From the NCBI GenBank assembly GCA_009777315.1, contig WRMD01000001.1, forward strand, positions 1 to 64,000: a DNA stretch of 64,000 nt, read 5' to 3'. The notes beneath the pieces are model-generated. The model was not told where the DNA came from. It did not search any database and was given only the letters and a program-made list of their open reading frames with translations. This document shows, one piece after another, positions 6,453-33,724 of the stretch (its first letter is position 1; each line of letters starts with the position of its first letter). Both the position numbers and the translations under genes were made by a program. The stretch comes from Candidatus Saccharimonadota bacterium. GTDB taxonomy: Bacteria; Patescibacteriota; Saccharimonadia; Saccharimonadales; Saccharimonadaceae.

Positions 6453-6483
6453 GGGGTTTAGGGACTTTGAGGGCTGCGGCTCT

Positions 6484-6701
6484 CCTCCCCACCCCCTACG
6501 GGTAGACACAGCGGAGGGAATAACCTAAACGTTTGGCTGGATTGTTAGAGAATGAGCCAGGATTTATGGCTGTGTTTGATAGGCGTGGACCATTGATAGT
6601 CTCATCCGAGTATATTGCAGACCCCCACCAAAGAGCGACTACCGACTGATTAGCAAACCCGCCTGGAGAACTAAAGTTATCTACAGAGACAGTGGCGAAG
6701 G
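6484..6701 (-). repeat. Variable gene-end cassette A (silent FISUMP-like C-terminus)
   Basis: Read on the - strand, the conserved box CCTTCGCCACTGTC (FATV) opens a frame of 68 codons without a stop. It contains the aromatic core ALWWGSAIYS and ends with LGYSLRCVYP and TAG (complement of 6496-6498). The conserved DNA continues past the stop as GGGGGTGGGGAGG. There is no start codon, ribosome site or promoter at its 5' side, where it abuts the promoter of the 6732 gene, which points the opposite way. It shares both boundary blocks, but not its middle, with the cassettes near 21.9, 22.3, 27.7, 27.9, 28.4 and 33.0 kb. Its 5' side (RSSFATV) is shared most extensively with cassette C. Confidence 0.85.
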
Positions 6702-21787: not shown

Positions 21788-21827
21788 ATGGATTATTGAC
21801 GCCTAGCGGCGAGGCTTGGCGCAGTTC

Positions 21828-22056
21828 TACCCACCCCCTACGGGTAGACACAGTGTCCAGCCCATGAGGGGAGTAGTCCTCCCCTCATCGTCCTCGTCGG
21901 CAAAAGCCGAGTTTGCCTATAGCAAACCAAGCGAGGACTGCTCCCCTCCTAGATAATGATTCGCCAGAAAAGGTCAGGCTCCGCCTGTCTTTTCTGGCTC
22001 CAGTCAAGGAAAGGAAGAAAACCTTGGTTTTCTTAGCAGGAGACAGTGGCGAAAGG
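21828..22056 (-). repeat. Variable gene-end cassette B1, degenerate and hairpin-filled
   Basis: Both boundary blocks are present on the - strand: TTTCGCCACTGTC at the 5' side and CTGTGTCTACCCGTAGGGGG at the 3' side. The middle is not a hypervariable reading frame. It contains several inverted repeats: AGAAAACC/GGTTTTCTT, CCAGAAAAG/CTTTTCTGG, CCTCG with GGC-TTTT-GCC, and GAGGGGAG/CTCCCCTC. It appears to be a cassette whose coding centre was replaced by structured DNA. It is divergent from the intact cassette B2. Confidence 0.7.
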
Positions 22057-22200: not shown

Positions 22201-22409
22201 CCTTCGCCACTGTCGCGCTGGGTCGTGCTGCCGCCTACGAAGGTCTGGTTAGCCAATCTAGCTGGACGTTCTGGCATACGTCTTCGCTCGTTAATACATC
22301 AAACTCACAAAGTACAGGCATTAGTAATGCAGCTTCTGGTACAGGTGTTCATAGTAACAGCAAGCCAGGAGGCTCATCCCTCCGCTGTGCCTACCCGTAG
22401 GGAGTGGGG
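22201..22409 (+). repeat. Variable gene-end cassette B2 (silent FISUMP-like C-terminus)
   Basis: From CCTTCGCCACTGTC the frame FATVALGRAAAYEG runs open to GGSSLRCAYP and TAG (22398-22400). Its aromatic core is SSWTFWHTSS. The 3' block continues past the stop but is slightly diverged (GGGAGTGGGGTG; RCAYP instead of RCVYP). There is no ATG, ribosome site or promoter. The ORF-track entry 22225-22455 is a different frame and is not meaningful. Confidence 0.85.
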
Positions 22410-22473
22410 TGTTAGTAGTTTTGTCAGTAGTTGGGTCAAGAAAACCGACAGATAGGATCAAAAAGCATGACAT

Positions 22474-27488: not shown

Positions 27489-27566
27489 TACTTCTATCCA
27501 GTCTTACTTTGATGCTGCATGTTTAGCCTATCCCATACTAACTATATCCTCCCTACCTAGCACTAG

Positions 27567-27781
27567 CCTCCCCACCCCCTACGGGTAGACACAGCGGAGG
27601 GAACGCCCCTGATGTTTTTGCGGTTGAGTGCCCCAGCCGGGGTACGCGTATGTACGCTCGATAATGGTGTGTGCGGCTAGGATATTAGACTGTAGCGAAG
27701 CAGCCCATATGCGCGCGAATAAAGACTGCTCGACTAACCCTTGACCTCGATTGAAGTAGCTATCCGAGACAGTGGCGAAGG
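27567..27781 (-). repeat. Variable gene-end cassette C (silent FISUMP-like C-terminus)
   Basis: On the - strand RSSFATVSDSYFNRG opens a frame with core LFARIWAASL and end GRSLRCVYP, TAG (complement of 27579-27581), followed by the conserved post-stop GGGGGTGGGGAGG. There is no stop within about 68 codons and no start signals. It follows cassette D directly in head-to-tail orientation. Its 5' flank GCGCTCCTCCTTCGCC is shared with cassette A. Confidence 0.86.
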
Positions 27782-27792
27782 AGGAGCGCGTT

Positions 27793-28003
27793 CTCCCTAC
27801 CCCCTACGGGTAGACACAGCGGAGGGAATGACCATTAAACTCAGGGCCGTTAGTAATGACGCCCGGGTTAATGGATGTGGGACCTACATTTATATGAATC
27901 GCGCTCATGTCTGAGCGTAGAGTCGATGCCCATATTAACGAACGCTCTTGCCCACGGAGTCCAGTTGGCGGGCTGAAGATGTCATCAGAGACAGTGGCGA
28001 AGG
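27793..28003 (-). repeat. Variable gene-end cassette D (silent FISUMP-like C-terminus)
   Basis: On the - strand FATVSDDIFSPPTG opens a frame with core RSLIWASTLRS and end FNGHSLRCVYP, TAG (complement of 27804-27806). Its post-stop block (GGGGGTAGGGAG) runs within 12 bp into the start of cassette C. Its 5' box begins immediately after the terminator of the 46-aa gene. Confidence 0.86.
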
Positions 28004-28276: not shown

Positions 28277-28500
28277 CCTTCGCCACTGTCATAAATGGAA
28301 GTATGGTTATCCAGCTTACTCAGCTAGGGTTAGGCTGGTTGTCTCAATTCTCGAATCAATGGATGTCATCCGTTATCTCATTTGAAAACGCTTCGCGATC
28401 ACATATGACAAGTGACAGCATCCATTTAGGTACAACTACAAATGACCCTAAACGTTACGGCAACGCCCTCCGCTGTGTCTACCCGTAGGGGGTGGGGAGG
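28277..28500 (+). repeat. Variable gene-end cassette E (silent FISUMP-like C-terminus)
   Basis: From CCTTCGCCACTGTC the frame FATVINGSMVIQ runs through core GLGWLSQFSNQW to YGNALRCVYP and TAG (28486-28488). The post-stop GGGGGTGGGGAGG is intact. An in-frame ATG exists at 28258 just before the box (ORF-track 28258-28488), but it has no ribosome site or fitting -10, so expression from it is doubtful. A terminator hairpin follows at 28515, and a promoter pointing back toward the cassette lies at 28567. Confidence 0.86.
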
Positions 28501-28514
28501 ATAGAAAAGGGACG

Positions 28515-28544
28515 ACCCCTGTTGGAACAGGGGTGAGGTTTTTT
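28515..28544 (+). terminator. Hairpin with U-run after cassette E
   Basis: ACCCCTGT/ACAGGGGT stem, followed by GAGGTTTTTT on the + strand. On the - strand the same hairpin lies about 25-45 nt downstream of the promoter at 28567. Confidence 0.8.
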
Positions 28545-28566
28545 GGTATAATTCTTTCTATTGTAC

Positions 28567-28595
28567 AGTATAGCACAAGCGGGATGGAAAGTCAA
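28567..28595 (-). promoter_or_regulatory. Promoter pointing antisense toward cassette E
   Basis: TTGACT, 17-nt spacer, TATACT on the - strand. No ORF follows before the hairpin at 28515, so it may make a very short RNA or an antisense transcript of cassette E. Confidence 0.6.
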
Positions 28596-32905: not shown

Positions 32906-33129
32906 CCTTCGCCACTGTCGAGTCGATTGGTTTTCGTCCTTCCGATGGTGTTCATGACTTCTCGACCAAACCATTCTGGCCGACACCAGCACTACGTTCT
33001 GTAACCCTTGCGTCTAACACTGGCGTAGGAGACGCGTTTGTTAATCCCGGTACAGGTGACGGCCCAAGCGCAGCTAGAAAACTTATGGGTCTCTCCCTCC
33101 GCTGTGTCTACCCGTAGGGGGTGGGGAGG
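32906..33129 (+). repeat. Variable gene-end cassette F (silent FISUMP-like C-terminus)
   Basis: From CCTTCGCCACTGTC the frame FATVESIGFRPSDG runs through core TKPFWPTPALRS to LMGLSLRCVYP and TAG (33115-33117), with the post-stop GGGGGTGGGGAGG block. It has no start codon or ribosome site. The upstream 80 bp contain no promoter in this direction that I can support. Confidence 0.86.
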
Positions 33130-33724
33130 ATCTGCTTAGTCATTTACTTAACCAAAAGGAACAAGAAGTAGAGTAAAGAAAAAGACCCTTCCCTCCCTAA
33201 CTAACCCTAAGTAAGCCAAAAAGGACTAGACCATCCCCACTAAGTAACCATGAGCAAGACAGACAAGGAAGCCAGGAGGGCATAACTCTACTCTACACCA
33301 ACAGCAGTGGGGAGGCCAAGGAGGGGAGGGGCCTAGGCGAAGCCAAAGCCCCGAACGACTAGGCCGAACCACCGCCGCTGGGATCAGTTTTCCACAAAGT
33401 TAGTCACGAACAGAACAGGGGGAATAGTAATGTTCCCGCCCTTAGGGCGGGAACTCTTTGAAACATATCGTGCTTCGGGAAGCTGACGGCTATCTATATT
33501 TTTGCGACGTTTAGGACTGAGGGTCGGGATAGGACAATATACCTGCAACATAGAAAAAACAGGGGTTGAAAAAAGACGAGTTTGATGAAAACCCAGAGGG
33601 GCAATAATTGATATTAAGGAGAGAATGTTGGGCAAATTAGTCAGGGACGAGTTAACAGATAGGGAAAATACATCGTTATTTTGGAAGGGAGGTCTAGGCT
33701 CTCCCTTCTCTAACATCCGGGTGG
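33130..33724. other. Gene-free region of about 600 bp before dnaE
   Basis: No credible CDS lies here; the ORF at 33384-33716 is not protein-like. The left half is poor in T on the + strand. It has long-range pairings: GTAGAGTA near 33175 with TACTCTAC near 33290, and GGCCTA/TAGGCC near 33330-33365. A strong hairpin GTTCCCGCCC-TTA-GGGCGGGAAC lies at 33432-33454, and GAAGGGAG/CTCCCTTC at 33684-33708 just before the dnaE promoter. An unidentified structured RNA is possible. Confidence 0.4.

Follow-up and report, generated by a model that had tools for sequence, protein, structure and literature searches.

The stretch of DNA analysed here (the window, 64,000 nucleotides) contains six silent cassettes, together with one non-coding element that has cassette-type ends and a repeated promoter-like element (Table 1). 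The 3' ends of the cassettes carry a conserved block that spans the stop codon, and its five exact or near copies in the window compare with 0.00 expected by chance. The block is GC-rich and contains the inverted repeat CTAC-CC-GTAG noted in the original prediction, but its folding is statistically unremarkable in comparison with shuffles (z = -1.3 as DNA and about -1.2 as RNA). The promoter-like element next to the block is regarded as accessory. With its hairpin (CCCCTGTTNNAACAGGGG) it recurs at about 20 further sites of the genome, often 14 bp ahead of the 5' end of a cassette and directed into it, sometimes at a distance from cassettes, and it could be a small RNA gene. Among structural RNAs, Rfam gives only tRNAs in the window.

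Table 1. Cassettes, block copies and associated elements of the window (positions are those of the window).
Feature	Position	Strand	Remarks
Conserved 3' block spanning the stop codon	28466-28501	+	CCCTCCGCTGTGTCTACCCG-TAG-GGGGTGGGGAGGA; TAG at 28486-28488
Exact or near copies of the block	6483-6518 (-), 27566-27601 (-), 27791-27826 (-), 28466-28501 (+), 33095-33130 (+)		
Weaker copies of the block	22378 (+), 21827 (-)		
Silent cassette holding the block under study	28278-28501	+	5' end CTTCGCCACTGTC at 28278-28290; FATV...RCVYP; TAG at 28486-28488; post-stop block
Silent cassette	32907-33130	+	3' block identical to that at 28466-28501
Silent cassette	27567-27780	-	95% near-duplicate of a cassette on contig C14; flanks unrelated
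Silent cassette	27792-28002	-	Tandem with the cassette at 27567-27780
Silent cassette	6484-6700	-	13 nt preceding its CTTCGCC 5' end match the expressed gene
Silent cassette	22202-22413	+	Three changes within the 22-bp part of the 3' block starting CTACCC
Non-coding element	21826-22054	-	Cassette-type 5' and 3' ends; interior hairpin-rich
Repeated promoter-like element	28514-28595	-	TTGACT..TATACT and hairpin CCCCTGTTGGAACAGGGG; directed at the cassette 3' end

The source genome (G000) is an 834-kb draft of 30 contigs, 87% complete, with contig breaks at cassettes. It contains about 150 copies of the block at three mismatches or fewer (none for a reversed-pattern control), a count slightly inflated by at least six contig-end copies, which are physical copies counted twice through assembly overlap. 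Cassette analysis took in 146 copies, found in the window and in about 317 kb of stretches around the other copies, and yielded 126 distinct in-frame cassettes that start with FATV and finish with RCVYP and the stop codon. The frame is open in 126 of the 130 copies with both ends at cassette spacing, the four exceptions being non-coding elements, while shuffled interiors are open in 9%. When 125 in-frame copies are aligned at the stop, the majority base reaches a frequency of about 0.94-1.00 in each column from -20 to +11, then 0.88 at +12, 0.90 at +13, 0.63, 0.65, 0.38 and background, the signal being gone by about +16. The proposed homology beyond the stop codon is thus borne out base by base across the genome. 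The left end, (C)CTTCGCCACTGTC, is as sharp as the right one, and between these ends the cassettes are hypervariable and mutually very divergent.

The last six codons are constrained beyond the protein level. Arginine is encoded by CGC in 126/126 cassettes (27% of interior Arg codons), tyrosine by TAC in 124/126 (38%), valine by GTC in 122/125 (25%), and leucine by CTC in 122/125 (12%); synonymous sites are fixed in the cassette ends only, whereas interiors use all codons for these amino acids. The cassettes are under purifying selection: 20 synonymous and 4 amino-acid changes separate the two members of a duplicated pair located at unrelated sites (dN/dS 0.05). They are promoterless, and an in-frame start with an RBS-like 4-mer occurs in 8/126 only. 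As silent frames would be kept open only if they were at times expressed, their state argues for exchange with an expressed gene, namely the one on contig C16 described below. Segment sharing among the 126 cassettes is scarce and two close pairs were found, unlike in frequently converting families. The cassettes are dispersed through the genome without forming an array, and 40 head-to-head pairs have inverted 3' blocks at their borders. Their 5' ends are ragged, with up to 22 extra nucleotides that match the coding sequence of the C16 gene, which indicates that the silent cassettes descend from the 3' end of that gene. Silent alternative C-termini make up some 3-4% of the ~0.83-Mb genome. No target-site duplications were seen in cassette pairs or singles, and no adenine-specific changes between cassettes. 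The block was absent from 150 other genomes of the family, and no viral contigs carrying it were found.

According to protein searches of the genome, the sole long ORF that contains a cassette with both ends and the post-stop block lies on the minus strand of contig C16, near parA/parB-like genes. It encodes a surface-type protein of 906 aa from its ATG, with a signal-like N-terminus and a FISUMP-like domain at the C-terminus. Its match to PF09603 is below the curated cut-off (E = 0.012), but over the domain it shares 44-51% identity with paralogs of this genome, including one that exceeds that cut-off; the AlphaFold model of the domain has a pLDDT of 29. Paralogous FISUMP genes that do not use the cassette ends have no sequence after the stop in common with the cassettes. 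A donor for the currently expressed cassette was not found among the copies analysed (the genome being 87% complete). The other long ORFs, on contigs C6, C3, C10 and C17, are FISUMP genes whose diversity is due to an ordinary DGR (template C6:32469-32705 (-), RT C6:31346-32467), and their adenine specificity is evident from the cleanest copy, in which 21/56 adenines and 0/139 other bases are changed. One target of this DGR, a silent variable region outside any full-length gene, lies at C6:30252-30446 (+), where 21/56 template adenines are changed and nothing else. A second DGR-like RT is encoded on contig C8; both RTs of the genome have RT 8ub7 as best match, and one of them has a textbook template repeat.

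Non-coding elements in the same genome possess the 5' and 3' ends of cassettes around a hairpin-rich interior without protein content. There are at least 11 of them in two families, including the one in the window. They keep CTGTGTCTACCCGTAGGGGGTGGGGAG but lack CCCTCCG, which codes for Ser-Leu-Arg in the cassettes, so that a part of the block constrained at the DNA level is separable from a part constrained at the protein level. As these elements are also found with insertion at unrelated sites, the ends probably do more than serve homologous exchange. At C2:42638 (+), C3:1767 (-), C3:35870 (+) and C21:165 (+), either a hairpin of about 70 nt stands in place of the central CCG of the block or a second right half-block lies about 50 nt past the normal one. 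The block of a cassette at C13:10565-10590 (-) adjoins AAGTGTAGAG.

When 295 genomes of the family were searched with a profile, most of the relatives that gave matches proved to contain long FISUMP genes, in many cases accompanied by N-rich DGR templates. One genome of another genus (G267) has short silent frames instead, with a private block (CTCCGCTGCCTAGCTAGACAG-TAA) in 104 copies, conservation of which runs a few bases beyond the stop. Among the copies analysed, the block occurs in a single ORF of 578 aa (C2:79577), whose product is above the TIGR02145 cut-off. Its expressed cassette is identical to a silent cassette at C4:11435 along a tract of 199 bp (-191 to +8, counted from the stop codon), while the flanks are unrelated. 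No other finding argues as strongly for copying as this identity, which extends past the stop as the block predicts. None of the 49 adenines of the tract is changed, so the copy was not made by mutagenic DGR homing. The donor-type copy is still present at the silent locus after the transfer, for which the sequence is compatible with either direction, and some cassettes of this genome are mosaics. In 173 other genomes of the genus, its block has no more than one weak match per genome: five genomes contain one match each, with 3 mismatches, and no further archive was found. At C2:96238-98237 of the same genome, a DGR-type RT is followed by two ordinary cassettes, at the place that an N-rich template repeat occupies in relatives; profile A1 detected no N-rich template in this genome.

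The original prediction that the block serves at the DNA or RNA level is upheld as regards DNA. Not only are synonymous codons and 13 post-stop bases fixed, but non-coding elements without protein content have the same two ends, which places the constraint at the DNA level; in addition, the sole long cassette-bearing gene carries the post-stop block as well, and the copied tract of the second species reaches 8 bp past the stop. Of the two roles suggested as examples, a crossover region is well supported by four independent observations, whereas a recombinase site is not (no Y1 transposase and no target-site duplications). The check for a linked recombinase gene turned up two Xer-type recombinases, neither of them linked to the recipient gene.

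An archive of silent cassettes, a single complete recipient with both ends, constraint at the DNA level and, in a second species, an exact copy at a silent locus are most readily reconciled if the block is the 3' crossover region, or homology arm, of a silent-cassette system that operates in the manner of Anaplasma p44, Neisseria pilS or Borrelia vls, a reading to which a probability of about two thirds is given. The last 65-70 codons of the C16 gene, with the stop and the 13 following bases, would constitute the replaceable cassette, and some 126 or more promoterless cassettes (six of them in the window) would hold alternative sequences between common short ends. The ends would act as homology arms (CTTCGCCACTGTC on the left, CCCTCCGCTGTGTCTACCCG-TAG-GGGGTGGGGAG on the right), such that non-reciprocal recombination (gene conversion), with crossovers within both of them, could transfer a copy of a silent cassette to the gene. 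As the exchanged tract would include the stop and the bases after it, homology should extend past the stop. Under this reading, switching would be active, would run from silent copy to gene and would depend on RecA-type enzymology, and the product would be displayed on the cell surface; the cassettes would also have been spread to new places. However, the 5' arm of only 13 bp is short for RecA and the 126 cassettes rarely have segments in common, both of which count against this reading, and the scatter of the unit to unrelated places, the non-coding elements and the lack of a donor in the source genome leave room for an enzyme acting at the ends. Candidates for it are the second DGR-like RT on contig C8 and the second Xer-type recombinase on contig C4. 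A role for the G-run of the block in a G-quadruplex carries little weight, as the equivalent block of the second species has no G-run.

It is possible, though doubtful, that a small mobile unit terminates in the cassette ends and is driven by a recombinase or transposase, with the cassette as a passenger and the block as an enzyme-binding end comparable to those of MITEs or to integron attC. Non-coding elements with the same ends, one cassette found at two unrelated places with homology stopping exactly at the ends, and the 40 head-to-head pairs delimited by inverted 3' blocks would fit such a unit. So would a lone right half-block at C4:39488-39505 (-), about 46 bp downstream of the gene for the second Xer-type recombinase (C4:39528-40475), and the junction at C13:10577, which looks reciprocal and has its crossover within CCGTAGG; the C4 half-block and the C13 cassette resemble the two reciprocal outcomes of recombination between the block and a palindrome, CTCTACACTTCC-GTA-GGAAGTGTAGAG. 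The absence of target-site duplications speaks against this, as does the fact that a Y1_Tnp transposase was sought and none was found. No integron integrase was found in the source genome (87% complete), the two Xer proteins scoring 124.6 and 89.1 bits, far under the cut-off of 265 bits, and the cassettes are scattered rather than arrayed. Moreover, the sole complete gene has the same cassette unit and the cassette ends are ragged into it, and a silent copy is retained in the second species, all of which fits copying rather than excision. An unlikely alternative assigns the transfer to a DGR-type RT, with cassette RNA as the template for copying into the gene or RNA of the gene as that for copying into the genome; the block would then be a site of initiation resembling an IMH, with a hairpin close to the stop codon. 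In its favor, the cassettes code for the kind of domain that DGRs vary in the source genome, the two RTs of which match 8ub7 best and one of which has a template repeat, and the second species retains an RT while no N-rich template was found. Furthermore, the target of the BPP-1 DGR requires a GC-rich 3' IMH, a hairpin (the published figure boxes the mtd TAG stop) and at least 8 bp of 5' identity (PMC3240598). On the other hand, the cassettes have no adenine bias, the 199-bp tract of the second species is unchanged at its 49 adenines, the hairpin of the block is not significant, and orthologs of the second RT occur in several genomes in which no archive was seen.

A related proposal, to which a still smaller likelihood is attached, is that the archive derived from a DGR target and that copying is still retro-based through a faithful DGR-type RT, random adenine mutagenesis having been replaced by heritable, tested C-terminal variants; entries would be added to this library and taken from it by way of the short 5' end and the block across the stop codon. 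Such an origin would account for the ragged 5' ends running into the expressed gene, for the non-coding elements with cassette ends and for the RT without a template repeat in the second species. That the block is private to each species might suggest a passive relic, i.e., a short repeat family that spread recently and whose post-stop bases have no function, but the interiors are saturated with changes while the ends are fixed, synonymous sites included. A neutral relic of that age would have diverged, which makes the idea very improbable. The position of the block at the stop codon could likewise point to a translation-termination context or to a transcription terminator in RNA. This is barely conceivable for cassettes that lack promoters and mostly start signals, given also that paralogous genes of the same family lack the block and that its fold energy is ordinary.

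Regarding the preferred reading, gene conversion from silent cassettes, the source genome has what is typical of such systems, i.e., a single complete expression gene and promoterless partial copies with common flanks (126). Neisseria pilE/pilS comprises silent 3' partial copies with homology past the stop codon (the Sma/Cla repeat). Both features are found here; however, pilS forms a few clustered loci, whereas the present cassettes are scattered genome-wide and encode no pilin. The nearest known system in copy number is that of Anaplasma phagocytophilum, in which msp2/p44 comprises about 100 silent pseudogenes and one expression site in a genome of 1.4 Mb (PMC4534519, PMC11946796). It shares with the cassettes the single complete expression gene, about 100 dispersed silent partial copies, a small genome, and conserved flanks around a hypervariable segment. 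The differences are that the variable part is C-terminal here and the common arm crosses the stop codon, that the cassettes are only about 200 bp long and non-coding elements have the same ends, and that the protein family is unrelated and more copies reside in a smaller genome. Borrelia vlsE, with 15 silent cassettes in B31 and 17-bp direct repeats at the cassette ends (PMC11499132, PMC3585125), is similar in its short end repeats, silent cassettes, single expression site and G-rich strand. Its cassettes are about 90% identical in one array, though, while those of the source genome are dispersed and nearly unrelated inside, and the block of the second species is not G-rich. DGRs (e.g., BPP-1 and the CPR-restricted DGR clade 2, PMC8144416) resemble the system in the kind of C-terminal domain, the GC-rich 3' element with a short inverted repeat at the stop (fold z about -1.2 here) and the short 5' homology, and DGR RTs are present in the same genome; yet the cassettes show no adenine-specific mutagenesis and no template repeat, and the place of a single template is taken by many silent copies. 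Integron gene cassettes are also promoterless ORFs with a recombination site at the 3' end, but here no integron integrase was recognised, there is no attI array, the units are scattered, and the site overlaps the stop codon.

The prevailing view is that Patescibacteria have minimal genomes and live on host bacteria. How their contact proteins vary is an open question. That some 3-4% of a ~0.83-Mb genome is devoted to silent C-termini, with frames held open by selection, suggests that changing this protein is important. Two strategies, DGR mutagenesis and silent-cassette conversion, would operate on the same domain family in one genome. Because each of the two species has an independent private block of its own, the rules of exchange, in terms of bases and enzyme, can be tested directly. 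The open-licence papers searched yielded nothing on silent cassettes in Saccharibacteria, and in these papers no such scheme of tip swapping was found for these bacteria. Two head-to-head cassettes with the same ends as those of the source genome occur at positions 2438-2870 of a 3.2-kb contig (WRAN01000031.1) binned as a Defluviitaleaceae MAG. The contig is either chimeric, misbinned or the result of a transfer between phyla; its GC content rises at the cassettes, and their HigA-like neighbour is 49% identical to one in the source genome.
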